A stretch of DNA of 64,000 bases from Verrucomicrobiia bacterium. GTDB lineage: Bacteria; Verrucomicrobiota; Verrucomicrobiia; Limisphaerales; JADLHS01. The stretch is taken from contig WYBW01000124.1 of assembly GCA_011525685.1 (NCBI GenBank), positions 62,001-126,000 on the forward strand, in the 5' to 3' direction. Below the pieces are notes generated by a model that searched no databases, had not been told where the DNA came from, and saw nothing but the letters and a program-made list of their open reading frames with translations. A program made the position numbers and the translations under genes. The first letter of the stretch is position 1. Each line of letters starts with the position of its first letter. Positions 9,386 to 32,259 of the stretch are shown piece after piece.

Positions 9386-9577
9386 TCTTAATTGCGCCTT
9401 GTGGATTGGGTCATGACTTGGTTCAGGATCAAGACTTCGAGTCAAGGCACGAGTCGAAGCAGCGCTTGCGCGCGCACGGGTTCTTCGCTACTGTCCCTGC
9501 GTCAGCACTGTTTGAACCCAGAGTGATTGATTTCTGTCTGACGATTAACCGAAAACCAAACACTGAACACTGAAATT

Positions 9578-10189
9578 ATGGCACACGAACTACCCCCGCT
9601 GCCTTACGACAAGGCGGCGCTCGAACCCCACATTGACGCGACGACCATGGAAATCCACCACGGTCGCCATCACAAGGCCTACGTGGACAACCTCAACAAA
9701 GCCATCGCCGGCACGCCGCTGGAGAACAAATCCCTGGAGGCGTTGATTGGCGACCTGGCTTCCGTGCCCGACAACATCCGTGGACCGGTGCGCAACAACG
9801 GCGGCGGTCATTGGAATCACTCATTCTTCTGGAAGCTCATGGCGCCGAAAGCGGGCGGCGCACCCACCGGCAAGCTGGCCGACGACATCAAGGCCGCCTT
9901 TGGCAGTTTCGCCGATTTTCAGGCGAAGTTTGAAGCCGCAGGGTTGGGCCGCTTCGGCAGCGGTTGGGCCTGGCTTGTCTCCAACGGCGGCAAGCTGGAG
10001 ATCGTTTCGACCGCCAACCAGGACAATCCGCTCATGGGCAAAGCCATCGCCGGCTGCGAGGGCAAACCCCTTCTGGGCGTGGACGTTTGGGAACACGCCT
10101 ACTACCTCAAGTATCAAAACAAGCGGGCCGATTACCTCAAAGCTTGGTGGAACGTGGTGAACTGGGCCGAGGTCGCCAAGAACTATTGA
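9578..10189 (+). CDS. sodA: Superoxide dismutase [Mn/Fe]
   Basis: Converts superoxide to hydrogen peroxide and oxygen. The four metal ligands can be placed: His27 in MEIHHGRHH, the His of HWNHSFFW, and the Asp and His of [25 protein letters not shown] with GSGWAWLV resembles the manganese type more than the iron type, but the metal cannot be settled from sequence. There is no leader, so it is cytoplasmic. 203 residues, normal. Single gene with its own promoter region (9386-9577) and a strong terminator 22 bp after the stop. Confidence 0.96.
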
Positions 10190-10211
10190 CTCGCCCACCA
10201 GGGATTACCCC

Positions 10212-10247
10212 AGGCGCGCTGACGATGGTCGGCGCGCCTGATTTTTT
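10212..10247 (+). terminator. Rho-independent terminator of the superoxide dismutase gene
   Basis: Perfect 8-bp stem AGGCGCGC (10212-10219) with GCGCGCCT (10232-10239), a 12-nt loop, then GATTTTTT. It lies 22 bp after the sod stop codon. Confidence 0.85.
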
Positions 10248-10350
10248 GGACGGCGCCGGCAGAGGGCAGCGACGACTGCTCTTTCGTTCTCTTATCCCTG
10301 ACGAAAACGGCGTCCAGGGAGTGCCAGGCTTGTCTTGGGCGACGTTGGAC

Positions 10351-10481
10351 GTGGGACAGGCGTCGCGCCTGTCTCCAACTTCGAAGTAAGCCTCGCCGGG
10401 AAATGATTCCTCAGACCTCGTCCCGGCACAAAAGCGTGATGCAGATGTTTAAGATAGAAACCAGCGAGACGCCTGTCCTAC
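10351..10481. repeat. Pair of inverted short palindromic repeats (GACAGGCG family)
   Basis: Two copies of a palindrome around GACAGGCGTCGCGCCTGTC: 10351-10376 in one direction and a shorter copy at 10464-10481 in the other. They border a stretch with no gene (10382-10463). A third copy is at 13406-13430. The stretch from the sod stop to 10497 (307 bp) holds the terminator and these repeats and nothing else that I can see. The right copy lies 15 bp past the stop of the minus-strand repair gene, so it could also serve as its 3' hairpin. Confidence 0.7.
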
Positions 10482-10496
10482 AGGATGGCCGTGAAA

Positions 10497-11372
10497 TCAC
10501 GCTGCCGCTCTCGCCGCTTCCCAACCCAGAATCGCGCGCTTACGATCCACGCCCCAACGATAGCCGCCCAGCAAACCACTCTCGCGAATCACGCGATGAC
10601 ACGGAATCAGATACGCAATCGCGTTTTGCCCAACGGCGCTGCCGATTGCGCGCGCTGCGCGTGGTGCGCCGATCATTTCTCCCACAGCTTGGTAAGTGGT
10701 CACCGAGCCAGCAGGAATTTTCAGCAGCGCTTGCCAGACCTTGATTTGAAAATTTGTTCCCATGAGCAGCAGGCCCAGCGGGCGTTGCGCAGGCTTGTCC
10801 AGATCAGCAAAAATCCGGGCTGCAACCGGGCCGCAAATCTTGGGACCCTCGCGGACAAGCGCACCGCACCAATGCGCTTTGAGTTCGCGGACGGCTGTGC
10901 GCCCGTCGCCGTTGCCCAGAAAACTGAGCCAACAAACGCCGCGATCCGTCACGCCCAACAGGCAAGAGCCAAATCGGGTTGGGTGAATGCCGTAGCTGAT
11001 TTCAATGCCTCCGCCACGGGACTTGAATTCGCCGGGTGTCACCGCCTCTGCCGACACGAACAAATCGTGCAGCCGTCCCGGGCCGGACAATCCCGAGTCC
11101 AACGCCACCTCAAGTAATCCCTTCGCGTCGCGCAGTTGTTGTTTCGCGTGCTCGACCGTCAGGAACTGCAAAAAGCGCTTGGGGCTGATACCCGCCCAAC
11201 GGGTGAACACGCGCTGGAAGTGGTATTCGCTCATGTGCGTGGCGCGGGCCGCGCGCGACAGGTCCGGCTGCTCTGCGGCGTGCGCACTCAGGAAAGCGAT
11301 GGCCTTCTCGATGCGCCGGTAATCCATCGCGGCTTGGGAGAGAGCGACGGCGTTTGCGCCTGTTTGATGCAT
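10497..11372 (-). CDS. Bifunctional AraC-type HTH / methylated-DNA--protein-cysteine methyltransferase
   Basis: Suicide repair protein removing O6-alkyl groups from guanine, fused to an AraC-type DNA-binding region. Residues about 15-105 form the two helix-turn-helix units (DLSRAARATHMSEYHFQRVF). The rest is an Ogt/Ada-C domain with the alkyl-acceptor PCHRVI and the preceding GTNFQIKVWQALLKIPAG and YQAVGEMIG segments. Unlike E. coli Ada it lacks the N-terminal zinc/Cys methyl-phosphotriester domain, so the usual Ada switch for transcription activation is absent; how it senses damage is unclear. 291 residues, a known reduced form. It lies 69 bp downstream of the ABC-F gene on the same strand. 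Confidence 0.92.
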   Translation of the reverse strand: MHQTGANAVALSQAAMDYRRIEKAIAFLSAHAAEQPDLSRAARATHMSEYHFQRVFTRWAGISPKRFLQFLTVEHAKQQLRDAKGLLEVALDSGLSGPGRLHDLFVSAEAVTPGEFKSRGGGIEISYGIHPTRFGSCLLGVTDRGVCWLSFLGNGDGRTAVRELKAHWCGALVREGPKICGPVAARIFADLDKPAQRPLGLLLMGTNFQIKVWQALLKIPAGSVTTYQAVGEMIGAPRAARAIGSAVGQNAIAYLIPCHRVIRESGLLGGYRWGVDRKRAILGWEAARAAA

Positions 11373-11441
11373 GGAGACAAACTACTTCCAGACTCGCATC
11401 GCGCCCACCCGATTCTTGCGGAGTTTGCCAGGCTGAACGGT

Positions 11442-13361
11442 TCAAACCGTCGCCAACTCACCCGCCGCTGCTTCCCATTCGGCAGTGGCGACCGGCAATC
11501 GCTCGTGAATCTCCAGCAGTTCCCGATTGATCTGCATCGCGCGCCCGCCCGTCGTGTAGGTCTCCGGCTTCTCCAGTTCTGCGGTCAGTTCCCTCTCCCT
11601 CGTTTCCAGTTCCGCGATTTCCGCCTCCAGGACAGTGATGCGTTGTTGGATTTTCTGTCGCTTGCGCGAGCGCTGCTGCCGTTGTTCCGCCTCTAACCTT
11701 TTCAGTTCTTTGCGCGACGCGATAGGGCTGACCTGCCGGTCAGACTGGACGCGTGGCAGTGCGTCGCTGCCAGACGAGGTCAGTGCCGTGCGAGCGCTTT
11801 GCGAAGTCTTGTCGAGGTAATACTGGTAGCCGCCGGTGAAATGCCTTAGTTGCCCGGCTTCCACCCGGACGACGTGATTCGACAGGGCGCGGATGAAATG
11901 CACATCGTGGCTGATGAAAATCAACGTGCCCTCGAATGGCTGCAGCGCTTCGATCAACGCGTCCACGCTGGCGAGGTCCAGGTGCGTGGTGGGCTCATCC
12001 ATCAGCAAGAGATTGGGCGGGTCAAGCAGCAGTTTCACCAGCGCCAGGCGGCTTTTCTCACCACCGCTCAACACGCTGACCGACTTGAATACATCGTCGC
12101 CACGAAACAGGAAACTCCCCAGCACCGTGCGGACAAATTGCTCGGTGACGCGCTGCGGCGTGTCGAGGGCCTCCTCCAGCACGGTTCGTTTCGGATCAAG
12201 CATGGCCGAGCGATGTTGCGCGAAATAGCCGGACCGCGCGTTGTGGCCCAGCTTGCGCACGCCGGCCTGGGGTTCCAGCACGCCGGCCAGCAACTTGAGC
12301 AAGGTGGACTTGCCTGCGCCGTTCGGTCCCACCAGCACGATGCGTTGCCCGCGCTCCGCGACAAAGTTCAGGTTCTCATAGATCAACCTGCTCGCGGGAT
12401 GCTTCACGCTGTCCGAAGGCACTCCCTCTCCCATCGGATGGGTGAGGGCAGGAGTGAGGGAGCTTCCATAACCAAACTTCACGTTCTCCAGTGTGATCAC
12501 CTTCAGCCCGCTGCGTTGGGGTTGCGGAAAGCGAAAGCCCACTGTCGCTTCCGGCCCCTCGGGTGTTTCCACCAGCTCTTCCTTGAGCCGCTCGATTTGC
12601 TTGAGCTTGCTCTGTGCTTGCGTGGCCTTGGTGTTCTTTGCTCGAAAGCGGTCCACGAACAGTTGCAGCCGGTCAATCTCGCGTTGTTGCGCCTTCGCCG
12701 TGGCGACCAACGTGGCTTCGGTGGCCGCGCGTTGCTCGAGATATTGATCGTAGTTGCCGGTGTAACGGAGCAACCGGGACTGGCGCAACTCGGCGACGTG
12801 CGTGCAGAGTTGGTTGAGGAACTCGCGATCGTGGGAGATCAGCAGGATCGCGCCGGGATAACTGCGGAGATAATCCTGAAACCACAAGAGCGTTTCGAGG
12901 TCGAGGTGGTTGGTTGGCTCGTCCAGCATCAACAGGTCCGGCTCTTCGGCCAGCAAGCGCGCCAGATGCGCCCGCATCACCCAGCCGCCCGAAAGTTCGC
13001 GGGCCGGACGATGGAAATCGCCCTGCTTGAATCCGAGGCTGGCGAGAATCTGTTTCGCCTTGGCCACGAATTGTCCGTCGTGCTCGTGTTCGTGCGGCAC
13101 GGCGATGTCCAGGACGAGTTCGTTGCCGGCGGGTTCGCTCTCCTGGGGGAGATAACCAAAACGCGTGCCGCGTATGAAGGAAACCTCGCCTGCGTCCGGC
13201 TGTTCTTGTCCGAGGACAACCTTGAGCAACGTGGTCTTGCCGGCGCCGTTCGGTCCGACCAATCCCACCCGCTCGCCCCGTAGCAAGGTGATCGAAACGT
13301 CGTCGAACAACTTCCGTTCGCCAAAGCGCTTTTGGAGTCCGGCAACCGTCAGCATGGACAT
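11442..13361 (-). CDS. ABC-F family ATP-binding protein (Uup/YheS type)
   Basis: Soluble tandem ATPase of the ABC-F class, which act on ribosomes or in DNA metabolism and have no membrane part. Two cassettes: Walker A GPNGAGKTT then GPNGAGKST; signature LSGGW in the first and LSGGEK in the second; Walker B LLMLDEPTNHLD and LLMDEPTTHLD; and a C-terminal coiled coil rich in Glu/Arg/Lys (about residues 545-635). Two stretches look foreign. About 25 residues at the start of the second cassette (DNA about 12405-12475) come from a CCCTC/GAGGG palindrome. A Ser/Arg stretch just before the coiled coil (DNA about 11730-11810) contains the hairpin GGCAGTGCGTCGCTGCC. Both stay in frame. 639 residues. 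Confidence 0.93.
   Translation of the reverse strand: MSMLTVAGLQKRFGERKLFDDVSITLLRGERVGLVGPNGAGKTTLLKVVLGQEQPDAGEVSFIRGTRFGYLPQESEPAGNELVLDIAVPHEHEHDGQFVAKAKQILASLGFKQGDFHRPARELSGGWVMRAHLARLLAEEPDLLMLDEPTNHLDLETLLWFQDYLRSYPGAILLISHDREFLNQLCTHVAELRQSRLLRYTGNYDQYLEQRAATEATLVATAKAQQREIDRLQLFVDRFRAKNTKATQAQSKLKQIERLKEELVETPEGPEATVGFRFPQPQRSGLKVITLENVKFGYGSSLTPALTHPMGEGVPSDSVKHPASRLIYENLNFVAERGQRIVLVGPNGAGKSTLLKLLAGVLEPQAGVRKLGHNARSGYFAQHRSAMLDPKRTVLEEALDTPQRVTEQFVRTVLGSFLFRGDDVFKSVSVLSGGEKSRLALVKLLLDPPNLLLMDEPTTHLDLASVDALIEALQPFEGTLIFISHDVHFIRALSNHVVRVEAGQLRHFTGGYQYYLDKTSQSARTALTSSGSDALPRVQSDRQVSPIASRKELKRLEAEQRQQRSRKRQKIQQRITVLEAEIAELETRERELTAELEKPETYTTGGRAMQINRELLEIHERLPVATAEWEAAAGELATV
12405..12475. 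repeat. In-frame palindromic repeat inside the ABC-F gene
   Basis: ACTCCCTCTCCC followed by GGTGAGGGCAGGAGTGAGGGAG makes an imperfect fold-back. It encodes extra residues (about LTPALTHPMGEGVP and flanks) between the first strand of the second ATPase cassette and the strand before Walker A, where ABC-F proteins normally have only a few residues. It belongs to the same CCCTCACCC/GGGTGAGGG style as the 196-bp element at 15711-15906. Confidence 0.65.
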
Positions 13362-13405
13362 TAAAGTGAGACAGCGATTCCCGCCTGGCTCAGACTCTGG
13401 AAATT

Positions 13406-13430
13406 GGAGACAGGCGCGACGCCGGTCCTA
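13406..13430. repeat. Short palindromic repeat (GACAGGCG family) at a gene's stop codon
   Basis: GGAGACAGGCGCGACGCCGG then TCCTA, the third copy of the repeat at 10351-10376. Its last three bases are the TAG stop of the minus-strand NIPSNAP gene. Confidence 0.65.
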
Positions 13431-13868
13431 CTTCAGCGGCGAGTAATCCGTCGCCGAGAGGAAGACCACGTCCGCCTTTTCCACGAGCCGGCCGTTCGCT
13501 TCCGATTCGGCCTTGGCTTTCTTCCACTCCGGGTCGTTGACGAAGGCGTCCCAGGATTTCTTGGCGGCCTCGCGGCTTTTGTGGGCCAAAATATAAACCA
13601 GCGTATTTTCCGAACCTTTGTCCTTGTCCTGTGGGATCCAGAACCCGACCAGTTCCATGCCATGCTTCTTGAACAGCTTGCAGGTATGGTCGCGGAAACG
13701 TCGGTTCATGTCCTCGAACTTGCCGGGTGCGGCGTAATAGGTCCGCATTTCGAAACAGCGGGAATCCTTGGCGACGGACGGGCTGGCCGGAGTTGCATCC
13801 TTTTCGGCTGCCGGGAGTGCAAGAGTGGTCGCGATGACGATGAACATTGAAGCGAGCAGTGTTTTCAT
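13428..13868 (-). CDS. Secreted NIPSNAP family protein
   Basis: 146 residues with a Sec leader ([20 protein letters not shown]) and a single ferredoxin-like NIPSNAP domain: [24 protein letters not shown], then [31 protein letters not shown] and the closing strand. NIPSNAP domains are dimeric alpha/beta barrels of unclear function; secreted forms are common in Verrucomicrobiota and Planctomycetes. The stop codon coincides with the edge of a palindromic repeat, so the last residues may be repeat-derived. Monocistronic by position. Confidence 0.9.
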
Positions 13869-13995
13869 AAGTTGTAGATTTGTTGGTGGCGATGGTCAGG
13901 CATCCGGTTGCTGGCGGCGAGCAAAAATCGCTTCTGCCCGGTGGTGGCGGGCGGTGCGCTGGGTTAAAGCCGGTGCGACCTCGCGATTTCTTGCT

Positions 13996-14208
13996 GGGCG
14001 CATCTCATTTTCTTGCAGGGGGCGCCGAGGCGATGCCGTAGCGCGGACTTCCAGTCTGCCGGGTCGCGGATTGCCAATCCGCAAACGCGGCGAATTCCTG
14101 GCCTGCCACGCCGTGCCTGGGCCCGCCGACTGGAAGTCGGCGATACCGCAGGTGGGGAAACCTGCGCTACGCCAGGAATGCCTGCCTGCAATCAACTGAG
14201 ATGCGCCC
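13996..14208. mobile_element. 213-bp non-autonomous transposable element (MITE-like), copy A
   Basis: Ends are imperfect terminal inverted repeats starting GGGCGCATCTCA on the left and ending TGAGATGCGCCC on the right; similarity continues to TTGCAGG inside. It is flanked by TTTCTTGCT (13987-13995) and TTTGTTGCT (14209-14217), a 9-bp target duplication with one mismatch. The core, 14038-14170, is a string of hairpins between GTAGCGCGG and CTGCGCTAC. Copy B at 34168-34380 is the reverse complement, the same length and nearly identical. It codes for no plausible protein; the frame running through it on the minus strand is repeat translation. The gap 13869-14307 holds only this element and the promoter of the next gene. 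Confidence 0.85.
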
Positions 14209-14307
14209 TTTGTTGCTGGAAACCAGCCTCCGCGCTTGTCATTTGCCGGTCCAGCGGGTATTTGCATCGGGTATCAACACGTAACAACCAGACCAGTAGA
14301 ACGCACC

Positions 14308-15228
14308 ATGCCCAACCCTTGGACCGGAAAAGGCAATCCTTACACCCGCAAGGAAGTCATCGAACGCCTGCGCGCCACGCTGGAGCGCGGGGACGCCATC
14401 ATTGCCGCGGGTGCCGGCACCGGAATCAGCGCCAAGTTCATCGAGCGCGGCGGCGCCGACCTGATCATCATCTACAACTCCGGCCGCTTCCGCATGATGG
14501 GCCACGGCTCGACCTGCGGCATGATGGCCTACGGCGACGCCAACGCCATCGCCATGGAGATCGGTGAATACGAGGTGCTCCCGGTGGTCGAGGAGGTGCC
14601 GGTGATTTGTGGCGTGCATGCCACCGACCCGCGCCGCCGCATGTGGCACTGGCTCGGCAAAGTGAAGGAGATGGGCTTCAGCGGCGTGAACAATTTCCCC
14701 ACCCACACCATCGTGGACGGCCACTTTCGCGGTGTGCTCGAAGAAACCGGCATGAGCGTGCGCAAGGAATACGAAATGGTTTCGCTCGCGCGGCGGATGG
14801 ATTTGTTTTCCATCGTCTATGTGGGTTCGGCGGAGGAAGCGGTCGAAATGGCCAAGGCGGGCGCGGATGCGATCATCGCGCACGTCGGCACGACCGTGGG
14901 CGGTTCGATCGGGGTGAAGAAAGCCGTGGTCACCTGGGAATTTACGCTCAAGCGGACGCAGGAAATCATTCAAGCCGCAGGCCGGGTGCGGAAGGACATC
15001 CTCTTCCTCTGCCACGGCGGTCCGATCAACACGCCCGCGGACGCGGAGCGTGTTTTGAAAAACACGGATGCCGTCGGCTTCGTCGGCGCCAGCTCGCTGG
15101 AACGGATGGGAGTGGAGGCCTCGCTGACCAACCTCACGCGCGAGTTCAAGAAGTTGAAAGCGCCGGCAGCGAAGGCGTTTGGCAAAAAGCGGCGTCCAGC
15201 CGCCGCACTCCAAAGCCTGCGGCGATAA
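14308..15228 (+). CDS. Phosphoenolpyruvate hydrolase family TIM-barrel protein (Tm-1 C-terminal domain homologue)
   Basis: 306 residues, single TIM barrel of the PEP_hydrolase/TIM_br_sig_trns family, which corresponds to the C-terminal half of the plant Tm-1 protein. Recognisable segments are GDAIIAAGAGTGISAKFIERGGADLI, the IYNSGRFRMMGHGS loop, FPTHTIVDGHFR, GADAIIAHVGTTVGG and LFLCHGGPINTPADAE. The ATG at 14308 starts the family N-terminus MPNPWTGKGNPY. It is first in a plus-strand run with a cupin, the ThuA giant and UPF0261, at gaps of about 20, 20 and 300 bp. The last 14 or so residues (KKRRPAAALQSLRR) are encoded by a GCGGC/GCCGC palindrome and look added by a repeat. Substrate is not known. 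Confidence 0.88.
   Translation: MPNPWTGKGNPYTRKEVIERLRATLERGDAIIAAGAGTGISAKFIERGGADLIIIYNSGRFRMMGHGSTCGMMAYGDANAIAMEIGEYEVLPVVEEVPVICGVHATDPRRRMWHWLGKVKEMGFSGVNNFPTHTIVDGHFRGVLEETGMSVRKEYEMVSLARRMDLFSIVYVGSAEEAVEMAKAGADAIIAHVGTTVGGSIGVKKAVVTWEFTLKRTQEIIQAAGRVRKDILFLCHGGPINTPADAERVLKNTDAVGFVGASSLERMGVEASLTNLTREFKKLKAPAAKAFGKKRRPAAALQSLRR
15185..15224. repeat. TTGGAGTGCGG-family palindromic repeat forming the 3' end of a gene
   Basis: AAGCGGCGTCCAGCCGCCGC followed by ACTCCAAAGCC. It has the same core as the repeats at 21123-21290 and 45887-45960 (reverse TTGGAGTGCGGCGGC). Here it supplies the last codons of the TIM-barrel protein. Confidence 0.7.
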
Positions 15229-15245
15229 TCATCCCATCTCTTGAT

Positions 15246-15677
15246 ATGACAATTGACCAACGCCGCTTCGTCACCGCCGCCGAGAAGGTGGATTTCCTCT
15301 CCCCCTGGACATTGGAAGAGTGGCTCTGTCGCTCCGACGTTGTGCCGAACAAGGAACTGCTCATGGTTCGGGCCAACATGGAAGCCGGCCGTTCGCATCC
15401 TTTTCACACGCATCCGACCCGCGAGGAGATCATCTACGTGCTGTCGGGGCGCGCGGAGCAATGGATCGGGCAGGATCATCGCATCCTCGGTCCGGGCGAG
15501 ATGGTGTTAATTCCGAAGGGCGAGGTTCACGGAACTTACAACCCGTTCCGGGAGCGACTCGTTTTTCTCGCCATCCTCGCGCCGGCCAACGCACCCGAAC
15601 CGGGCATCGTGGACGTTTCCACTGAAGAGCCGTGGGCTTCGCTGCGTCAGAAGCACGGATTGCCAAACTGCAAATAG
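15246..15677 (+). CDS. Cupin domain protein
   Basis: 143 residues, one beta-barrel cupin_2 domain. The metal-binding motif is HPFHTHPTREEIIYVLSG, followed by the second motif around GPGEMVLIPKGEVHGTYN. There is no leader, so it is cytoplasmic. It starts 17 bp after the TIM-barrel gene and ends 21 bp before the frame of the ThuA giant, so co-transcription is likely. Likely a small isomerase or a sensor of a sugar or acid derivative; the sequence does not fix the ligand. The reading frame runs upstream through the previous gene, but ATG 15246 fits the domain border. Confidence 0.88.
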   Translation: MTIDQRRFVTAAEKVDFLSPWTLEEWLCRSDVVPNKELLMVRANMEAGRSHPFHTHPTREEIIYVLSGRAEQWIGQDHRILGPGEMVLIPKGEVHGTYNPFRERLVFLAILAPANAPEPGIVDVSTEEPWASLRQKHGLPNCK

Positions 15678-15698
15678 ACGCGTCTGGATTGAATTTTT

Positions 15699-18600
15699 AT
15701 GATCAACACTCGCCCTCACCCCGGCGTTCTCCCCCAAGCAGAGGGAGAATTGTTCGCCGTCACCTCGCCTTGCAACGCTTCGGGTCGCTCGAAGGTCGCC
15801 TGCTTCAAGCAGCCGATTCGCAGCCGGATGCACCAAGGCCGTGCAAGAGCTTGTACCGCACGACTACCACCCCCTCTCCCCGGGGGAGAGGGCCGGGGTG
15901 AGGGCGAGCGTCAACACAGATCTCAAAGCCGATTAGTCCAGACCGCGTGGCGTTTGTTGCTCTTAATGGTGCTGCTCGCAACATTCACCACTCACGCCGT
16001 CGAGCCGCTCCGCGTTTTCATCCGGAGCGGTCCGAAGACCCACGGGCCGGGTCAGCATGATCACCCGCGTTTCCTGCGCGAGTGGACCCAACTGCTCAAC
16101 GAGCGCGGTCTGAGGGCGCAGGGAGCGAACGAGTTCCCCGGGTCCGCGCAGCTCGATCAGACCGATGTGCTGATCATTCACGCGCCGGACGGCATGAAGA
16201 TCGTCGGCGAGGACCGTGAAGCACTGGAAAAATTCCTCCAACGCGGCGGTGGAATGGTGGTGATCCATGCGGGCGTGGTGGGCGGGGATCAACACGCCTG
16301 GGTCAGGAAAGTCATCGGCGGCGCCTGGCGCTGGGCGTCACCGGACCTGCCGCGCGAACGAGCGACGAAGTACCTCGAAGGTGAAGTCGGTCTTTGTTGG
16401 CTGGACACCGAGCATCCCATCAGCCGCCAAATGTCCAACTGGGACTGGAAAGACGAAATCTACTACGACATGGACATGTCACCGGAAGTTGGCGTGCTGG
16501 CCGCGAGCTTTCATAATGTCCACATCATCGCGCCACAAATTTGGACTTATGAGAAAACCATGGACGGTGGCACGACACCTTACCGCGCGTTCGTCAGTCT
16601 GCCCGGGCACGAATACGTTTCGTTCAACACGCCGCAATATCGCACCGTATTGCTGCGCGGGATTGCCTGGGCCGGCAAACGGGCCAACGTGGATGAATTC
16701 TGCAAGCCGGATGAACTGGCCTCGCTCCGTTATCCGCCCGGCGGGCCTCGGCCCGCGGCGGAAGCGCTGAAGACCTTCGAGTTGCATCCCGAGTTCAACG
16801 TCACGCTGGCAGCCGACGAAAATCTGGCCGAAAAAATCATGTCGCTGGATTGGGATCCGCGGGGCCGCCTCTGGGTGGTGGAGACACCCGAGTATCCCGG
16901 TGGTCGCGACGTGCATCGCAACGATGCCCGCATCGCTCCGTGGCGGACTCGCGAGCCGGACAAGTTTCCGGCGGGTCGCAAGGAGCCGCGACCGCCCCGC
17001 GACCGGGTTTCCATCCTCGAGGACACCGACGGCGACGGCATCATGGACAAGAAGACGGTCTTTGCCGACGAACTGGAACTGCCCACCTCGCTCGTGTTCT
17101 ACAAGGACGGGGTGATCGTCTCGCAGGCGCCGGACATCCTGTGGATTCGCGATACCGACGGCGACGGCAAGGCCGACAAGCGAGAAGTGCTGTTCACCGG
17201 CTGGGGCACGTTTGACACCCACGCCGTCATCAGCAACCTCCGTTGGGGGCCGGACGGCTGGGTTTATGGCAGTGTCGGTTACAGCGCCGGTGACGTGACC
17301 TCCGGCGACGGCACCAGGAAGTTTGGCCGCATCACGGCGGGCCTGTATCGCTTCCGCCCGGATGGTTCGGCGCTCGAGCAGTTTGCCTCCGGCTCGTGCA
17401 ACACCTGGGGCTGCGAAGTGGCGCCGGACGGCGAAATCTTCTTCTCCACCGCCACCTGTGGCGAGCCAATCCTTCACGTCGTGTTGCCGGAGAGAATTGT
17501 CAGCCGCGCCGGCATGCCCGGTGTGCGCGCCGTCAAACCCATCATCGAGGAAAACAAGGTATTCCCGGCGCGCCAGGAAACCCGGCAGCCCTACCTGCAG
17601 ATTGACTGGGTCGGCGCCTGGACGGCGGCCTCGGGTTCCACCATCTACGACGGCGGGGCCTGGCCTGAGAAGTGGCAGGGACCGTCCTGGTCGTTCTTTC
17701 TGCACGAACCCACCGTCTGGCTGACGCATCATGAGTTTCTTGACCCCGCCGGCGTGAGCTATCAAGGCCGGCGTGAAGCAGGCCGTCAGCAGAAACACTT
17801 TCTGGCCAGCACGGACTATTGGTTCAAGCCGATCCACAGTCGTGTCGGACCGGACGGCGCGTTGTATCTCGTGGATTTTTACAACCAAATCGCCGTTCAC
17901 AATGACACGCGCGGACCGCCGCACGGCGCGCGCAATGCCGCCACCCGGCCCGACCGGGATCATCACTTCACGCGACTGTACCGCATTCAGCACAAGGAGG
18001 CGCGACGGTTGCTCCCGTTTGAACTGAGCAAGGACAAACCCCAGCGCCTCGTCGCGATGCTGGATCATCCGAACGGCTGGGTGCGCGCCACGGCCAACCG
18101 ATTGCTCAGTGAGGGGGCTGGCCGTTCGGTGCCGGAACTCCTCCGCACCCAGGCCGGCCGGGGAAGCACAACCTATGGGCGGATGCAGGCGCTCTGGGTT
18201 TTGCACAACCTGGACCTGCTCGAACCGGAACTGCTGCTCGCAGCGGCGCAGGATTCGGATGCGGTGATCCGGAAGAACGCCATGCGCATCGCGGCAGACC
18301 GTGACCACAGCGCGAACGAACCCCCACCGGGGCTGGTGCGGGCCCTGCTCGCCGACCCGGATCAACGCGTCCGCATAAACGCGCTGATCGCCGGCACCAG
18401 CCTCCCGCCCACGCGCGAACTGGCCGAGGCGCTCGTCGAGGCGTGGCCCACGTTCCAGGATCGTCACCTCGAGGCGGCCGCGCTGGCCATCACGGCCCGC
18501 GACCCGCTGCTCTATCTCGACGCGGCACTCGATGCGGGAAATCCGACGCCGCTCTCCGGAATGGTGACCCAACTCGCCCGTCAAGTCGGCAATCAGAACA

Positions 18601-21056
18601 ACCCTGACTCGGCCCGTGCGCTCGTGCTCGCTCTCGCCGCAAAACCGGCTTCCGCTGACGCGCTCAAAACCGTCGCGCTGCAATCCCTCACGGCGACGCT
18701 GCGCCCCGGGGTGAAGCCGGAGGCCAGTCCCGCGCTGGGCACCGCCTTGCGCCAACTGCTCGCGTCTGACCAAACCGCCGGCGCGGTGCTGCCGCTGGTC
18801 GCACGTTGGGACTTCGCCGGTCAAGTTGGGGACGCCACCAGATCGGCGGTTGCAAAAGCCGCGGCGCGGTTGACGGACCAATCGCTGTCCGATGCGGAGC
18901 GGGGGCAAATCGCCATGAACCTTCTGGGCGTGCGCGCGCTGGACGCGAGCATCGTGCCCGCCGTGGCCGCGTTGGTGGGCGGAAACGCCAGTCCCGGCCT
19001 GCAACGCCGAGTGATCGAGGCCCTTGGCACGACGGATGAGGCCGCGGCCGGCCAGGTGTTGTTGGCTGCCCTGCCGCAATTGGATTACGACCTGCGCGAA
19101 GCTGCCTTCGGCCAGTTGCTCAAACGCGCGGACTGGTCGTCGTTGGTGGTGCAAGCCCTGGCGGACCGCAGACTGGACACGGCCGTGCTCGGGCCGGGGA
19201 ATTTGCATCGCCTGCGCACCCACCCGGACGCCGCGGTCGCCACTCGTGCGGCGGCGGTGATTACCGAACTCAAGGGACCGGAACAAAAGGAGAAGGAGGC
19301 GCTGATCGCGAAGTTGCGTCCGGAGGTCATCAAACCCGGCAACGCCGCCCGCGGGGCCAAACTCTACACGGAGAACTGCGCTGCGTGTCACAAGTTCAAG
19401 AACGAGGGGGCCGACTTTGCTCCCAACCTCACCGGCATGGGCGCCCACGGGCCGGAAGACCTGCTCATCCACATCGTGGACCCGAATCGCGTGGTCGAAC
19501 CCAACTATGTGTCGGTGAGCATCGAAACCAAGGATGACCTCAGCTACGATGGCATGGTCTTGCGGGAGAACAACGCCGTCGTTGTGTTGCGCAACCAGAC
19601 CGCTGAAACCGAGATTCGCAAGGACAACATTGCTTCCCGCCGCAGCACGGGCCGTTCGTTGATGCCCGAAGGTTTCGAGCAACTCGGCGTCGAGGGCTTG
19701 CGCGACCTGTTGACCTACCTTTGCGCGGACGAGCAGCGCTTCCGCATCCTCGATCTTGGCGGGGCCTTCACCGCGGACACCTCGCGCGGCATTTACATGA
19801 CGCTGGAGTCGCGCGACGAATCGCTCCGCTTCAAGAAATGGGGCACGATCAAACATCGCGACGTGCCGTTTGACATCGTGAACCCGGCGCGCACGGCCAC
19901 GGGCAGGAACGTGATCGTGTTGCAGGGCGGCTCCGGCATGGCGCGCAACTATCCGCGTCAGGTCGAGGTCAAGGTGGGATTGCCGGTGACGAAACTTCAC
20001 TTCCTGGGCGGCGTGGCCGGATGGGGGAGTCCGTTGGGTCGGGCCAACGAACCGGTGGCCAGGGTGATCGTGCAGTTCGCGAATGGAGAGAGCGAGGAAA
20101 TCATCCTGCGCAACGGCGTCGAGTTCGCGGATTACATCGGGCGCTTCGATGTGCCCGGTTCCGAGGCGCTGCCCAATCTGGACGACCTGTTGCACCAGGG
20201 CCGGCAACTGCGCTACTTCGCAAAGCCACTCAAGAAGCGCGGCGTGGTCGAGAAATTGACGCTCGCCAGTTACGCCAACGAGGTCGCGCCGACCTTCGTC
20301 GGCATCACAGTGGAAACGGGCGAGGGAGCGCCCGGCGTGGGCGCAACTCCGGCCGACAGCGCCGCGATTGTCGCCCCCGCCGCACCGGCGTCACCGAAGT
20401 TCCAATGGGGAGCTGGCCTCAAGGTCTTGATCATCGGTGGTGGTGACGCGCATGACTATGAGCGTTGGTTCAACCAGGCCGATGTGAAGACGCTCAACGA
20501 CACCGGCGGCATCAGCGCGAATTACACCGACATTACCGGTGGCCTCGCGGACGTGATCGCCGGTGTGGACGTGCTGATCGTCAGCAACAACAAGCGGTTC
20601 ACCGACGAGGCCACGAAGCAGGCCATCACCAAACACATCGAGAATGGCAAAGGCTTCATCGGTCTGCATCCCGGACTGTGGTACAACTGGCGCGACTGGC
20701 CGGAGTACAATCGCGTGCTGGTCGGCGGCGGCTCGCGCGGACACGACCGATTGGGCGAATTCGAGGTCGTGGTGACGGAGACCGCTCATCCGCTGATGCG
20801 GAATGTGCCCGCGAAGTTCACCATCAAGGACGAATTGTACTGGTTTGAACCCGATTCACAGGGCACGCCCATCAAGGTGTTGGCCACGGCGCATTCGAAA
20901 CAGAAGAACCAAGCTTACCCGCAAGTGTTCATCGTCCAACACGCGAAAGCCCGCGTGGTGGGCTTGACGCTGGGCCATGACGGCGACACGCACCATCATT
21001 CCGCCTACATTCAGTTGCTGCGCAACGCGGTGCTGTGGGTGGCGGGCAAGAACTGA
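15699..21056 (+). CDS. Secreted giant: ThuA - membrane-bound dehydrogenase propeller - HEAT - cytochrome c - ThuA
   Basis: Frame of 1785 codons. In order: leader WRLLLLMVLLATFTTHA (about 82-98); first ThuA domain (100-330); TIGR02604-type dehydrogenase/NHL propeller (360-760) with calcium loops DTDGDGIMD and DTDGDGKAD; HEAT-like repeats (770-1190); haem-binding cytochrome c (1215-1350) with CAACH at 19378-19392 and a likely axial Met in RSLMPEG; a beta-rich region (1350-1520); an Ala/Pro linker; and a second ThuA domain (1574-1785). ThuA domains are linked to trehalose or other sugar use. It is probably a periplasmic sugar oxidase passing electrons to haem. The first ~75 codons read through a 196-bp repeat, so the real start is probably a non-ATG codon near 15900-15966. 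Confidence 0.85.
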   Translation: MINTRPHPGVLPQAEGELFAVTSPCNASGRSKVACFKQPIRSRMHQGRARACTARLPPPLPGGEGRGEGERQHRSQSRLVQTAWRLLLLMVLLATFTTHAVEPLRVFIRSGPKTHGPGQHDHPRFLREWTQLLNERGLRAQGANEFPGSAQLDQTDVLIIHAPDGMKIVGEDREALEKFLQRGGGMVVIHAGVVGGDQHAWVRKVIGGAWRWASPDLPRERATKYLEGEVGLCWLDTEHPISRQMSNWDWKDEIYYDMDMSPEVGVLAASFHNVHIIAPQIWTYEKTMDGGTTPYRAFVSLPGHEYVSFNTPQYRTVLLRGIAWAGKRANVDEFCKPDELASLRYPPGGPRPAAEALKTFELHPEFNVTLAADENLAEKIMSLDWDPRGRLWVVETPEYPGGRDVHRNDARIAPWRTREPDKFPAGRKEPRPPRDRVSILEDTDGDGIMDKKTVFADELELPTSLVFYKDGVIVSQAPDILWIRDTDGDGKADKREVLFTGWGTFDTHAVISNLRWGPDGWVYGSVGYSAGDVTSGDGTRKFGRITAGLYRFRPDGSALEQFASGSCNTWGCEVAPDGEIFFSTATCGEPILHVVLPERIVSRAGMPGVRAVKPIIEENKVFPARQETRQPYLQIDWVGAWTAASGSTIYDGGAWPEKWQGPSWSFFLHEPTVWLTHHEFLDPAGVSYQGRREAGRQQKHFLASTDYWFKPIHSRVGPDGALYLVDFYNQIAVHNDTRGPPHGARNAATRPDRDHHFTRLYRIQHKEARRLLPFELSKDKPQRLVAMLDHPNGWVRATANRLLSEGAGRSVPELLRTQAGRGSTTYGRMQALWVLHNLDLLEPELLLAAAQDSDAVIRKNAMRIAADRDHSANEPPPGLVRALLADPDQRVRINALIAGTSLPPTRELAEALVEAWPTFQDRHLEAAALAITARDPLLYLDAALDAGNPTPLSGMVTQLARQVGNQNNPDSARALVLALAAKPASADALKTVALQSLTATLRPGVKPEASPALGTALRQLLASDQTAGAVLPLVARWDFAGQVGDATRSAVAKAAARLTDQSLSDAERGQIAMNLLGVRALDASIVPAVAALVGGNASPGLQRRVIEALGTTDEAAAGQVLLAALPQLDYDLREAAFGQLLKRADWSSLVVQALADRRLDTAVLGPGNLHRLRTHPDAAVATRAAAVITELKGPEQKEKEALIAKLRPEVIKPGNAARGAKLYTENCAACHKFKNEGADFAPNLTGMGAHGPEDLLIHIVDPNRVVEPNYVSVSIETKDDLSYDGMVLRENNAVVVLRNQTAETEIRKDNIASRRSTGRSLMPEGFEQLGVEGLRDLLTYLCADEQRFRILDLGGAFTADTSRGIYMTLESRDESLRFKKWGTIKHRDVPFDIVNPARTATGRNVIVLQGGSGMARNYPRQVEVKVGLPVTKLHFLGGVAGWGSPLGRANEPVARVIVQFANGESEEIILRNGVEFADYIGRFDVPGSEALPNLDDLLHQGRQLRYFAKPLKKRGVVEKLTLASYANEVAPTFVGITVETGEGAPGVGATPADSAAIVAPAAPASPKFQWGAGLKVLIIGGGDAHDYERWFNQADVKTLNDTGGISANYTDITGGLADVIAGVDVLIVSNNKRFTDEATKQAITKHIENGKGFIGLHPGLWYNWRDWPEYNRVLVGGGSRGHDRLGEFEVVVTETAHPLMRNVPAKFTIKDELYWFEPDSQGTPIKVLATAHSKQKNQAYPQVFIVQHAKARVVGLTLGHDGDTHHHSAYIQLLRNAVLWVAGKN
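15711..15906. mobile_element. 196-bp element with perfect 15-bp terminal inverted repeats (CGCCCTCACCCCGGC)
   Basis: CGCCCTCACCCCGGC at 15711-15725 is exactly inverted at 15892-15906. The sequence TCAACAC lies outside both ends (15703-15709 and 15911-15917), a possible target duplication. An inner hairpin CCCTCTCCCC/GGGGAGAGGG sits near the right end. It lies at the extreme 5' end of the giant gene. Removing it and one TCAACAC would put the frame from ATG 15699 into a stop (TAG) after nine codons, so that ATG is an artefact of the insertion. Confidence 0.7.
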
Positions 21057-21122
21057 GGGCGGCGAGCCGTCCGCTTTACAGCAACCGTTAGCAGACAAGA
21101 TGTCAAGTGCCCAGACGGACGG

Positions 21123-21290
21123 AAAGCCTTGGAGTGCGGGGGGTTGTCCCCGCTTTCCCTGCTTGAGCGATTCGGCGTTCAAACAGGGCCGCGTCCAGTG
21201 GCCCGGGGGTGCGGTTGAGCCGCGCTTTGTATTCGACGGCGACAAGTCGCCTGCCGAAAGCGGCGTCGAGCCGCCGCACTCCAAAGCCTT
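21123..21290. repeat. 168-bp repeat unit with inverted ends (TTGGAGTGCGG family)
   Basis: Left end AAAGCCTTGGAGTGCGG (21123-21139) and right end CCGCACTCCAAAGCCTT (21274-21290) are inverted with 15 of 17 positions matching. Inside are further GC-rich fold-backs. I see no clear target duplication. It fills most of the 296-bp gap between the ThuA giant and the UPF0261 gene; no gene is visible in the gap. Confidence 0.65.
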
Positions 21291-21352
21291 TGTCGTGGCC
21301 GCGTGTGTCCTCGCGGATTGTTTGCACGCTGTTTGCCAAAGCTGAAATTCCT

Positions 21353-22570
21353 ATGCCCGCGATTGCCATCCTCGGAACGATGGACACGAAAGGCGACGAG
21401 CACGCCTTTGTGGCCGAGCTGATTCGTCAGCGTGGGCACGAGGTGCTGGTGATTGACGTGGGCACGCTGGGTGAACCACGCCTGCGACCTGACATCACCC
21501 GCGCGGAGGTGGCCGCGGCAGCGGGCGTGGACTTTGCGCAACTGGCCGCGAAGCAGGACCGCGGCGAATCGGTGACCGTCATGTCACGCGGCGCGCCGGT
21601 TGTCTTGGCCAAGCTCGCCGAGCAAAAGCGCATTGACGGCGTGATCTCACTTGGCGGCGGTGGCGGCACGGCCATTGCCACAGCAGCGATGCGCGGGTTG
21701 CCCATTGGTTTTCCGAAGCTGATGATGTCCACGCTCGCCAGCGGCAACGTCGCTCCCTACGTCGGTGTGAAGGACATCGTCATGTTTCCCAGCGTGGTGG
21801 ACGTGGCTGGGCTGAACCGCATCTCGCGCCCGCTCCTCGCCCGCGCCGCCGGTGCGATTTGTGGCATGGTGGAGACGCAGCCGCCGGCGGTGGCGGACAA
21901 ACCCATCATCGTCGCCAGCCAATTTGGCAACACCACCCGCTGCATCGAGCGGGCCAGGGCGCTGCTGGAAGCCGCCGGTTATGAGGTCATTGTTTTTGCC
22001 GCCACGGGCGTTGGCGGACGAACGATGGAATCCCTCATTGAAACGGGGTTGGTGGCCGGCGTGTTGGACATCACCACGACGGAATGGGCGGATGAACTGG
22101 TCGGCGGCGTGTTGACGGCCGGTCCCACCCGCCTTGAAGCCGCTGCCCGCCGCGGCGTGCCGGCGGTGGTTTCGACTGGTTGTCTGGATATGGTCAACTT
22201 CGGTCCGCCCGACACCGTGCCCGCAAAATTCGCCGGGCGGAAATTTTACCAGCACAACCCGCAAGTGACACTGATGCGCACGACGCCGGAGGAGTGCGCC
22301 AAGCTGGGCGGCATCCTCGCCGAGAAGTTGAACCTGTCCACCGGGCCTGTGACGGTAGTCTTGCCCTTGCGCGGCGGCAGCGTCATCGGTGCCTCGGGCG
22401 GCCCTTTTCACGACGCTGCGGCCGACGCAGCGTTGTTCGCTGCGCTGAAAGCCGGGTTACGGGCTGAGATCCCGGTGCAGGAACTCGACTGCACCATCAA
22501 TGATGCCCCGTTTGCCGAAGCCGCTGCGACGGCGCTGCTCCAGTTGCTGCGAAAACACCGGGAGGCTTGA
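21353..22570 (+). CDS. Tm-1-like ATP-binding domain protein (UPF0261)
   Basis: 405 residues, the full UPF0261 family, equivalent to the N-terminal half of plant Tm-1. The start is ATG 21353 (MPAIAILGTMDTKGDEH); the frame opens at 21209 but that part is repeat. Family marks are ILGTMDTKG, ISLGGGGGTAIATAAMRGLPIG, the ASGNVAPYVG loop, MVETQPP, VVSTGCLDMVNFG and LPLRGGSVIGASGGPF. Bacterial UPF0261 genes commonly neighbour a PEP-hydrolase-like TIM barrel, as here 6 kb upstream in the same direction. The biochemical role is unproven; nucleotide binding is inferred from the plant protein. Cytoplasmic. Confidence 0.9.
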   Translation: MPAIAILGTMDTKGDEHAFVAELIRQRGHEVLVIDVGTLGEPRLRPDITRAEVAAAAGVDFAQLAAKQDRGESVTVMSRGAPVVLAKLAEQKRIDGVISLGGGGGTAIATAAMRGLPIGFPKLMMSTLASGNVAPYVGVKDIVMFPSVVDVAGLNRISRPLLARAAGAICGMVETQPPAVADKPIIVASQFGNTTRCIERARALLEAAGYEVIVFAATGVGGRTMESLIETGLVAGVLDITTTEWADELVGGVLTAGPTRLEAAARRGVPAVVSTGCLDMVNFGPPDTVPAKFAGRKFYQHNPQVTLMRTTPEECAKLGGILAEKLNLSTGPVTVVLPLRGGSVIGASGGPFHDAAADAALFAALKAGLRAEIPVQELDCTINDAPFAEAAATALLQLLRKHREA

Positions 22571-22808
22571 GTCGCGTCGCTGCGCTGGTCGCGGGACAAA
22601 GAAGTTCTCCTGAAGCCAGGCGGCTGACGCGTCCCCCACCTATATCCTCATTCATTGCGAGCATCAGAAGTGCTGTTCGCGAGGAAGTCAACAATCAGAT
22701 TATGTGATTGACGTGTCTGGAACTCAGTCTAGGATGACATTGGACGGCAACGGGGTTGCGGTCCAGGTGAGGTCACAACTAACCAAACTTAAAATCGAAA
22801 GGGCTCGA

Positions 22809-25034
22809 ATGAAACTTCTCCAAACTTTCTCGTCACGGGGCGCTGTTTTCCCGGCACTGGTGGTGGCGGGATGCCTGACTGTTCCCGCCGTGCGGGCAGT
22901 GTCCTACCATGAAGTCGTTCTCGCGGATCAGCCATTGGTGTATTACCGGCTGGAGGATCCGGCTGGTTCAATGATGGTTACCAACGCTGTCAACCCGGAC
23001 ACCTTCTACGCGTTTGTCATCCCGGATGAGTACTTCGAGTGGCCAAAGTTTGAGCAACCCGGCATTGGGAGCAATTCCGTCAGCTTTCATCTCTACACTC
23101 CCGATGGTGGAACTCCGCAGAGATCGAGGATTGAACTGCCGTTCACACCGGAGATCAACCAGGCAGGACCGTTCACAGCGGAATGCTGGGTGCGTCCGAC
23201 CAGTTGGGGCAGTGACTATCGTTGTCCGCTGGGTAACTTCGGCGGTTGGGGTGCGTCTCCCACACCGGGCTGGCACTTCTACCAAACCCCCGGAGAGGGC
23301 GCGACCTCCACCTGGATCTGGGTGCAGAAGGGAGGCAACATCTGGCTGGGAGGCAATCCCGTGACCAAGAACAAGTGGGATCACCTGGTCGCCACTTACG
23401 ATGGCACGACCGTCCGATTCTACGTAAACGGCGTGCTTAGTGGCTCGGCGGTGGACACCGCCCCGGCGCCCAACACCAGTCAACCTCTATGCATTGGGTG
23501 GAGTCCCGCCGGCGGATGGGTCTTCGACGGAAGCGTGGATGAAGTTGCAATCTATGCCACCGCTCTGACGGAGGCGCAGATCCAGATGCATTACCAGGTG
23601 GGACTGACCAATTTCTACAGCGGTCCGATTCCCGCCTACGTGACTCAGGATCCGCTGCCGGTGTCGGCTTACGCTGGGCGCACCGCCACATTCGTCGTCG
23701 GCGCGGACGGCAGCACACCATTGTCCTATCAATGGTACAAGGGGAATGTTCCCATTGATGGCGCCACCAGCGACACCCTGCGGTTCACGTGCGCTTACTC
23801 TGACAACGGGGCGACTTACAAGGTGGTCGTGACCAACCTTTACGGCTCCGCGACGAGCGCACCGGCGGCGCTCACCGTGATGACGGACCTGACATTAATT
23901 TCCAGTCCGGCCTCCATTACCCGCAGTGTCGGCAGCAAGGCGGCCTTCATCGCCCAGGCTGGCGGAGCGCTGCCAGTGACCTATCAATGGTACAAAGGGA
24001 CGACGCCGATCCCGGCGGGCACAAATCAGATGTTGTGGCTCTCGGACGTTCAACTTGCTGACGACGGCACGACGTATTACGCGAGGATCTCGAATCCCTG
24101 GTCGAATACCAACAGCGAAGCGGCCATGCTCACAGTGGTTCCAAGGGCGTTGGAGGTGCCAATGACGGGTTATGCCAGAGTCATCAAGGCGGACGATCCG
24201 GTCGCGTTCTGGCGTCTGGATGAACCCGAGGGCAGCATCACGGCTGTGGATGCGATTGGCAGTTTTGATGGAACCTACACGCCGGGCAGCGGCACCATCA
24301 CCTACCAGGTCCCGACGGGTATTCCCAATGAAGGCAACAAGGCGTTTGCCGTGACCGGCGGAGCCCGGGTTGCCGTGCCTTGGGCGCTGGAACTCAGCCC
24401 GCGCGGTCCGTTCACGGCCGAGGCTTGGTTCATGCCCGCCTCACTGCGGGCGGATGACCTGGACTACCGCACGGTCTTTTCCTCCATGGGATTCGGCCCC
24501 GGCGGCACTGGCCCGCACGGGTGGTTGCTTTATCAGCAACCGAACAACCGGTTCGCTTGGGTGCTCTTTAGCCAGGGTTGGCTGAGTTCGTTTATGGGCG
24601 ATCCCGTCTCCGTCATCGAGGCAAACACCTGGTATCACATGGCACTGACTTACGATGGATCGCTCTTCCGCATCTACGTCAACGGCCAACTCACCGCCTC
24701 GCAGGCCTACGATTCGTTCATCCCGAATCTGGATGGCGCGATCAACCTGGGCTGGCGCAGCGACAACGGCTGGAATCCATTCGATGGCACGCTGGACGAC
24801 GTCGCCTTCTACAACAAGGCGCTGACGCTTGAACAAGTCCAGGCCCACTATGCCGCCACCGTACGACTGGGGATTTCCCGGTCCGGCGACAGCATCACGC
24901 TCACCTGGCCGTTCGGCACTCTTCAGCAGGCGGACAATGTGGCGGGCACATACACCGACCTGCCCTCGGCAACTTCGCCGCACACGATCCTAATGGGCGC
25001 GACGCCGAAGTTCTATCGCGTCAAAGTGCAGTGA
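22809..25034 (+). CDS. Secreted LamG-Ig-Ig-LamG surface protein
   Basis: From ATG 22809, about 741 residues: a leader (FPALVVAGCLTVPAVRA), LamG/concanavalin-like domain 1 (about 25-285, with PFTAECWVRPTS and WDHLVATYDGTTVRFYVNG), two Ig-like domains (about 290-370 and 375-455, each with SYQWYKG or TYQWYKG), LamG domain 2 (about 465-680, with PFTAEAWFMPAS and WYHMALTYDGSLFRIYVNG), and a C-terminal beta-rich segment ending KFYRVKV. No catalytic residues are recognisable; probably glycan binding or adhesion outside the cell. The two LamG domains look like an internal duplication. Similar C-terminal segments occur in the next two genes. The 238 bp upstream hold no gene. Confidence 0.85.
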   Translation: MKLLQTFSSRGAVFPALVVAGCLTVPAVRAVSYHEVVLADQPLVYYRLEDPAGSMMVTNAVNPDTFYAFVIPDEYFEWPKFEQPGIGSNSVSFHLYTPDGGTPQRSRIELPFTPEINQAGPFTAECWVRPTSWGSDYRCPLGNFGGWGASPTPGWHFYQTPGEGATSTWIWVQKGGNIWLGGNPVTKNKWDHLVATYDGTTVRFYVNGVLSGSAVDTAPAPNTSQPLCIGWSPAGGWVFDGSVDEVAIYATALTEAQIQMHYQVGLTNFYSGPIPAYVTQDPLPVSAYAGRTATFVVGADGSTPLSYQWYKGNVPIDGATSDTLRFTCAYSDNGATYKVVVTNLYGSATSAPAALTVMTDLTLISSPASITRSVGSKAAFIAQAGGALPVTYQWYKGTTPIPAGTNQMLWLSDVQLADDGTTYYARISNPWSNTNSEAAMLTVVPRALEVPMTGYARVIKADDPVAFWRLDEPEGSITAVDAIGSFDGTYTPGSGTITYQVPTGIPNEGNKAFAVTGGARVAVPWALELSPRGPFTAEAWFMPASLRADDLDYRTVFSSMGFGPGGTGPHGWLLYQQPNNRFAWVLFSQGWLSSFMGDPVSVIEANTWYHMALTYDGSLFRIYVNGQLTASQAYDSFIPNLDGAINLGWRSDNGWNPFDGTLDDVAFYNKALTLEQVQAHYAATVRLGISRSGDSITLTWPFGTLQQADNVAGTYTDLPSATSPHTILMGATPKFYRVKVQ

Positions 25035-25058
25035 TGGAGCTGGTGCAGGGGCACATTC

Positions 25059-25084
25059 ACGGGCCGGGGTTCATACCGGCCCGT
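25059..25084. terminator. Bidirectional hairpin terminator between convergent genes
   Basis: Perfect 9-bp stem ACGGGCCGG / CCGGCCCGT with an 8-nt loop, followed by TCTGTTT on the plus strand. It lies 24 bp after the LamG gene and 24 bp before the end of the convergent DUF4434-SUMF1 gene. Confidence 0.8.
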
Positions 25085-25108
25085 TCTGTTTCGGCGGACG
25101 GCTATAGA

Positions 25109-27082: not shown

Positions 27083-27231
27083 AAAACCCGTCGGCTTCTG
27101 CCTCAGCCAACATTTCAGTTGGTAGCATAATCGTCCCGTGCGGGCCAGCATTCTGTGAAGTTGTGCAATCGCACTCGCAATCGCACTTGCATTTGGCAGT
27201 GCGCCATCCACCTTGATACCGGGGTGCATGA

Positions 27232-30111: not shown

Positions 30112-30322
30112 TGCCGGAAGCGGTGCGGTCCGGTGTTCTGTTTCCACGAAGCCCGCGAGCCAAACCAAACCGCCAACGGGCAGGTCTCGCTTGTATGTTC
30201 AACCGCCTTGCTTCCTCACTGTAAGGACTAACTCTGCGCCTTGGATCGGCCTGCCAGTGCCCAGCTCCATTTGCAGGGGGCGCCTCTTGACCGCACCACC
30301 ATTGAGCAGGTAACTGCTAACT

Positions 30323-30437
30323 GTAGCGCAGGTTTCCCAACCTGCGGTATCGCCGATTTCCAATCGGCTGGCTGTGCGAAGTAACGCAGTCTGCGGGTAG
30401 GAAACCCGCGATACCGCAGACTGGAAGTCTGCGCTAC
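30323..30437. repeat. Hairpin-array core module (GTAGCGCAG...CTGCGCTAC), copy C
   Basis: 115 bp with inverted ends GTAGCGCAG and CTGCGCTAC. Inside is a row of small hairpins such as GCAGGTTTCCCAACCTGC and GCCGATTTCCAATCGGC, and a final GCAGACTGGAAGTCTGC. It is the same core as in the 213-bp elements. A decayed outer arm may remain on the left (TTGCAGGGGGCGCC near 30274) and on the right (AAGATGCGCTC near 30448). The whole 489-bp gap 30112-30600 holds this module and the rpsP promoter region; I see no gene. Confidence 0.75.
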
Positions 30438-30600
30438 GGTGGTTCCAAGAAGATGCGCTCATTCGCAGATTTGCAGGTCGAGCCTAAAACAGGACTTGCA
30501 AAGCCGGTCGAGGTTGCTAGTCTCTGCCTCCCTTTTCGGGGACAACCAATCGGTGCGCGGCTCGAAAGACCGGTCGCGGACCTTGTTTAGAAGCAATTTT

Positions 30601-30858
30601 ATGGCAGTTCGAATCCGCTTGAAACGCATCGGAGCGAAGAACGCTCCGGTGTTTCGTATTGTTGTGGCCGACAGCCGCAGCCCGCGCGACGGCAAGTTCA
30701 TCGAGGAACTGGGCACGTACTGGCCGCGGAAGAAGAGCAACAAGGTCCATTTCAATCTGGAGCGCGCCCAGCATTGGCTGGGCAAGGGGGCGCAGCCCAG
30801 TGAAACCGTCGCGAGTTTCATCAAGAAAGCCGCCAAGGCCGCTGCCGCCGCGGCGTGA
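30601..30858 (+). CDS. rpsP: 30S ribosomal protein S16
   Basis: 85 residues. Family N-terminus MAVRIRLKRIGAKNAPVFRI, then VADSRSPRDGKFIEELGTY and the C-terminal Ala/Lys tail. It is an essential small-subunit protein that binds 16S rRNA early in assembly. First gene of the rpsP-khpA-trmD-rplS operon; khpA follows after 9 bp. Confidence 0.98.
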   Translation: MAVRIRLKRIGAKNAPVFRIVVADSRSPRDGKFIEELGTYWPRKKSNKVHFNLERAQHWLGKGAQPSETVASFIKKAAKAAAAAA

Positions 30859-30867
30859 GGATCGGCC

Positions 30868-31113: not shown

Positions 31114-31159
31114 CGACCGCCGGCGAGCCAAACGATCCCGTTGCCGGGACGGAAGGCCA

Positions 31160-31828: not shown

Positions 31829-31864
31829 AGCGGACCGCAACGGGCGGACCAGACCAGAACTTTT

Positions 31865-32242: not shown

Positions 32243-32259
32243 TCGTCCTGCCCGTCGCT

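Follow-up and report, generated by a model that had tools for sequence, protein, structure and literature searches.

A probable ISKra4-family MITE with a REPIN centre, positioned upstream of predicted promoters in a Verrucomicrobiia bacterium

Complete insertion sequences of the ISKra4 family (p-MULT 4) with 24-bp terminal inverted repeats (TIRs) and 9-bp target site duplications (TSDs) occur in the bacterial order analysed here. Insertion upstream of sigma-A -35 boxes is reported for part of the ISKra4 group and for TnGBS and ISLre2 elements; the TnGBS type inserts at a distance of 15-17 bases, and promoters can lie on either side of those ISKra4 members that have near-perfect inverted repeats (PMC3942029). 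Miniature inverted-repeat elements (MITEs) such as Nezha, Correia/NEMIS and MITEPsy1 are short, non-coding, TIR-bounded and multicopy, create TSDs and have no transposase of their own. REPINs, in turn, are pairs of GTAG-tagged palindromes in inverted orientation that belong to the RAYT system (PMC3116915, PMC3733652). None of these components is new in itself, be it the ISKra4 element, the MITE, the REPIN or the targeting of promoters. A chimera of an ISKra4 MITE and a REPIN was not described in the literature we found, which covers the field in part.

Here, we describe a 213-bp repeat that resembles all three systems. It has the TIRs, the TSD length and the either-side placement upstream of (here predicted) -35 boxes of the ISKra4 family, but it is much shorter, contains no transposase gene and has only the ends in common with these insertion sequences. 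It is built and distributed like the MITEs named above; its interior, however, is a second mobile repeat and not a remnant of the parent insertion sequence. The core has the inverted GTAG-tagged layout of REPINs, and doublets homologous to it flank a RAYT gene of this genome, but unlike free REPINs it is enclosed by foreign TIRs and accompanied by TSDs and promoter targeting.

The analysed stretch of 64,000 nucleotides (the window) contains two full copies, one on the forward strand at 13996-14208 and one on the reverse strand at 34168-34380. A preliminary description had reported them as a near-identical inverted pair, and pairwise alignment of 13996-14208 with the reverse complement of 34168-34380 gave 204/213 identical positions without gaps, with coordinates that proved exact. 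Of the 213 positions, 4 in the 14-kb copy and 5 in the 34-kb copy depart from the consensus of the repeat family. The 14-kb copy is flanked by TTTCTTGCT (13987-13995) and TTTGTTGCT (14209-14217), which agree at 8/9 bases as had been noted, and the 34-kb copy by a perfect 9/9 pair of TGTCTGGCA (34159-34167 and 34381-34389). The earlier reading of a short non-coding inverted-repeat element that inserted independently with 9-bp target duplications is supported, and the pair with its TSDs is confirmed. In the 14-kb copy, the left TIR GGGCGCATCTCATTTTCTTGCAGG occupies 13996-14019 and the right TIR, the reverse complement of which is GGGCGCATCTCAGTTGATTGCAGG, occupies 14185-14208 on the reverse strand. 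Between them lies the core, at 14038-14170 on the forward strand and, in the second copy, at 34206-34338 on the reverse strand. The interior is strongly folded (z -6.9); a search of the window against Rfam returned no match.

To place the pair in its genome, we collected copies from the 6.73-Mb assembly of this GC-rich genome (199 contigs, 97.8% complete). An initial search yielded at least 42 matches, with 40 of 226 candidates scored, and sampling of the loci fetched from the genome gave 49 distinct full copies. A count of the 12-bp end GGGCGCATCTCA over the 6.7 Mb gave 111 occurrences, far more than chance would produce, as the reversed control pattern was present once. Among the 46 copies with both flanks available, an exact 9-bp TSD was seen in 24 and an 8/9 match in a further 12 (36/46 in total), while a good TSD was absent in about 10. 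No other duplication length was common in this set, and deliberately mispaired flanks matched at 8/9 or better in 0.05% of pairings. Divergence from the family consensus has a median of 2.8% and ranges from 1.4 to 10.3%. With a length of 213 bp, no coding capacity, a TIR identity of 21-22/24, TSDs of 8-9/9 in most scorable copies and 49 copies, the repeat has the properties of a MITE.

Several variants accompany the full copies. At L041 (1-327, contig C42) and L034 (501-850, contig C55) copies occur in head-to-tail pairs 8-10 bp apart; at L041 the spacer GCCAGACT is found again behind the second copy, which would fit a tandem insertion with a shared TSD. Two REPIN-like cores in tandem lie between ends of the same kind in a 334-bp relative (L060, 1679-2012, contig C166), and an 80-bp internal-deletion copy retains both ends and part of the core only (L046, 1933-2012, contig C45). 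At L042 and L058 (2001-2012 in each) a lone GGGCGCATCTCA end adjoins an unrelated interior and a second end was not found; these are possibly remnants of other ISKra4-type elements. Contigs C48, C51, C80, C99, C106, C107 and others of the same genome begin 115-173 bp before a TIR, which indicates that the MITE is largely responsible for the breaks in the assembly and that the true copy number exceeds our count. Many contigs indeed end inside copies, some of which are thus incomplete, as would be the case if the repeat were an artefact of assembly or of segmental duplication. For the two window copies this explanation is refuted, and its overall probability is negligible: the TSD differs from site to site, the flanks are unique and a congener is collinear across the 14-kb site.

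The ends of the repeat were traced across the order, where the TIR pattern was detected in 38/196 genomes and included pairs about 1.47 kb apart. These pairs delimit insertion sequences of 1473-1500 bp that encode a protein of 473-482 amino acids. One of them, L114, comes from a family-level relative of the genome of the window. It is a complete 1500-bp insertion sequence that encodes a 482-aa protein, has the TIR GGGCGCATCTCAGTTTCTTGCAGG at either end and is flanked by a perfect TSD of 9 bp, AACCTGATC; TSDs of 9 bp were likewise found for L115 and L119. The proteins of L114 (E 1.8e-61) and L098 (E 8e-62) pass the cut-off of the ISKra4 transposase profile NF033572, and that of L099 falls below the NCBIfam ISKra4 cut-off. 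The MITE has TIRs of about 24 bp of the GGGCGCATCTCAGTTTCTTGCAGG type, its left end being identical to the L114 end at 22/24 positions and similar to the ends of L098 and L099. TIR type and TSD length hence both correspond to ISKra4 elements, and the lack of a transposase gene within the 213 bp sets the repeat apart from an ISKra4 insertion sequence proper.

Autonomous elements with these ends were found in relatives only. Protein and HMM searches of the genome's own assembly detected no ISKra4 transposase, and 20 further stretches around TIR matches in this genome held MITE copies, deletion and double-core variants and two single ends, with no insertion sequence among them. The transposase may have been lost from the genome or may be hidden in contig breaks. 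A resident DDE transposase of another family that makes 9-bp TSDs, for example one of the IS4/IS903 type, might instead have moved the repeat, since the genome has seven DDE_Tnp_1 matches, one of them an intact IS4-family gene. We give this proposal very little credence: at none of the 7 DDE_Tnp_1 loci are matching TIRs positioned as the ends of an insertion sequence, two of the loci have exact TIR matches nearby that belong to adjacent MITE copies, and TIR match and promoter offset (see below) both indicate ISKra4. An IS4/IS5-type parent was rejected on the same observation, as none of the seven loci has these TIRs as its own ends.

The interior has a distribution of its own. BLAST of the element against relatives produced matches at positions of about 41-177 only, without the TIRs, in 28/57 genomes including its own. 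The matching core begins with GTAGCGC and ends with GCGCTAC, and consists of two GTAG-tagged palindromes in inverted orientation, the layout described for REPINs (PMC3116915, PMC3733652). It matches TIR-less doublets in its own genome and in relatives as well as both flanks of a RAYT gene. Two related free REPINs without TIRs lie in the window itself, at 30323-30437 on the reverse strand, where a TSD is absent too, and at 38513-38648 on the forward strand. An arm pattern specific to the REPIN occurs 59 times in the genome and 0 times in the control, and MITE copies account for a minority of these occurrences. The RAYT gene of the genome (L136, 1102-1839) has copies of the core on both sides at 80-84% identity. 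Its product matches NF047646 with an E value of 6.6e-21 at 74.7 bits, just below the curated cut-off of 80 bits, matches Y1_Tnp above the cut-off and contains the HUH motif NHVHV.

These observations could also mean that RAYT moves all 213 bp as one long REPIN or BIME, with the outer repeats as an additional pair of REP-like palindromes. In favor of such a scenario, the core is a RAYT-associated REPIN and the genome has a RAYT gene, while an ISKra4 transposase was not found in the assembly. We nevertheless consider it very improbable. Sixteen TIR-less REPINs from the same genome start with GTAG or TTAG and nearly all end with CTAC, so that free copies have the boundaries of the core and not those of the element. 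Their flanks scored 0-5/9 for a TSD, and no promoter peak was seen for them at any offset (largest z 2.3). Both traits are present in the TIR-bearing copies and are therefore properties of the unit delimited by TIRs, not of the REPIN inside it. Whereas REPINs have neither TIR nor TSD, the whole element has both, and it shares its ends with ISKra4 elements, for which 9-bp TSDs were likewise seen.

The placement of the repeat was examined in 43 copies, whose flanking DNA was scanned away from each end with the pattern TTGACA-N16..18-TATAAT and scored on the better side; promoter boxes are accordingly predictions based on the E. coli consensus. A single sharp peak was obtained, in which the first base of the -35 box lies 28 nt from the element end (offset 27, i.e., 18 bp past the 9-bp TSD). 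With the better of the two sides taken for each copy, the score averaged 6.86 at this offset (z 12.1), and at all other offsets 4.04 with an sd of 0.23 and a maximum of 4.95. As the choice of the better side inflates all offsets equally, the contrast between offsets stands. The aligned sites read cTTGnC at 27-32 (T 97%, T 79%, G 84%), followed by a weaker TAnnnT at 51-56. The better predicted promoter lies to the right in 27 copies and to the left in 14, with a tie in 2, and 18/43 copies have no promoter scoring 7 or more at offset 27. The same offset of 27 ranked first of 190 (z 6.4) when 17 related elements of other genomes were scored. The spacing of 18 bp past the TSD is near the published value, for which the reference point may differ (PMC3942029).

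Both window copies follow this pattern. Beyond the right end of the 14-kb copy, a predicted -35 box TTGTCA (14236-14241, forward strand) starts 28 nt from the element and is followed after a 17-bp spacer by a predicted -10 box TATTTG (14259-14264), which is partly conserved in the element-free congener. From the -10 box it is 44 bp to the start codon ATG (14308) of a PEP_hydrolase family gene (PF09370, E 7e-104; 14308-15228, forward strand). At the second copy, a predicted -35 box TTGACC (34135-34140, reverse strand) lies 27 bp from the element, with a predicted -10 box TATACA (34112-34117, reverse strand) after a 17-bp spacer; the gene downstream is HU/IHF-like (PF00216, E 9e-27; 33748-34068, reverse strand, start at 34068).

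Such fixed placement beside predicted promoters, including that of the HU-like gene, together with the strongly folded interior, would also be expected if the unit had been co-opted as a regulatory or insulating module, acting through its hairpins or through the loss of upstream activator sites, with copies kept by selection. Transposase targeting alone, however, explains the placement. Mean column conservation is near equal in ends and core (0.966, 0.963 and 0.950), and with a median divergence of 2.8% from the consensus this leaves selection not visible. We therefore regard co-option as unlikely.

The history of the two window copies was compared with what the preliminary description had proposed. 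The TSD mismatch had been taken as a sign that the 14-kb copy is the older one, an idea that was not borne out: the two copies are nearly equally far from the consensus, so that a single TSD mismatch is no clock of age. The suggestion that the inverted copies could recombine holds in principle, but no sign of such an event was seen. Window positions 9577-25032 are collinear and on the same strand with 63622-78104 of contig C67 of G001, the only congener, across the 14-kb copy; an inversion ending at 14 kb has thus not become fixed relative to G001. Synteny with this contig breaks within 25032-35488 of the window, and the block that matches next is located on a different contig, in inverted orientation. 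A comparison with a relative lacking the element had been proposed, and G001 has no element at the 14-kb site. Its intergenic DNA gave a modest alignment over the junction (p about 0.04 in an anchored test); free-floating similarity of the left half at this site alone was not significant (p 0.36). A search of the congener for clean empty sites, in 60 pieces of 20 kb, met intergenic DNA that was too diverged; only the 14-kb junction aligned, and weakly.

Taken together, the repeat is very probably a non-autonomous ISKra4-family MITE (Mutator-like, p-MULT 4) with a REPIN at its centre, moved in trans by an ISKra4 transposase and directed to promoters. The features behind this reading, namely TIRs and their identity to ISKra4 ends, TSDs, copy number, REPIN core, RAYT association and spacing to predicted promoters, were all read from genome sequence. 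The unit would have kept only its ends of about 24 bp from the parent insertion sequence, and its centre would be a REPIN of the host RAYT/REP system. Either an insertion or an internal rearrangement may have brought the REPIN in between a pair of ISKra4 ends, and the unit would then have multiplied. An ISKra4-type transposase would recognize the ends in trans, insert the unit and duplicate 9 bp, with preferred targets that have a sigma-70-type -35 box 18 bp beyond the duplication and hence 27 bp from the element end. Once in place, the element may influence the neighboring promoter.

Related combinations occur elsewhere in the order. Four MITEs from other genomes (L093, L095, L103 and L104) share these TIRs and have perfect TSDs of 9 bp, and their palindromic cores are different ones. 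In genome G102, doublets of the form TCATTAACAC...GTGTTAATGA exist with and without TIRs, and the core arms occur TIR-less. At L213, L214 and L217 of this genome, the doublets are arranged as TCATTAACAC-palindrome...palindrome-GTGTTAATGA; they are REPIN-like, lack a GTAG tag and are found free as well as inside the ISKra4-type MITE L212. In G095 the whole GTAG-containing core was found with and without TIRs, and some of the TIR-less copies may be decayed MITEs. Tentatively, this could reflect a recurrent partnership across the order, in which ISKra4 ends repeatedly enclose REP-type doublets of the host; if true, it would provide REPINs with a second, promoter-directed route of spread.

MITEs of DDE transposons and RAYT-dependent REPINs are normally treated apart, and here one contains the other. 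The finding extends the known promoter targeting of ISKra4-type elements to a MITE in Verrucomicrobia. Through the transposon part, the REPIN comes to lie upstream of predicted promoters at a constant spacing throughout the genome, and these dozens of sites offer a natural set for asking whether promoter-proximal REPIN hairpins alter expression.
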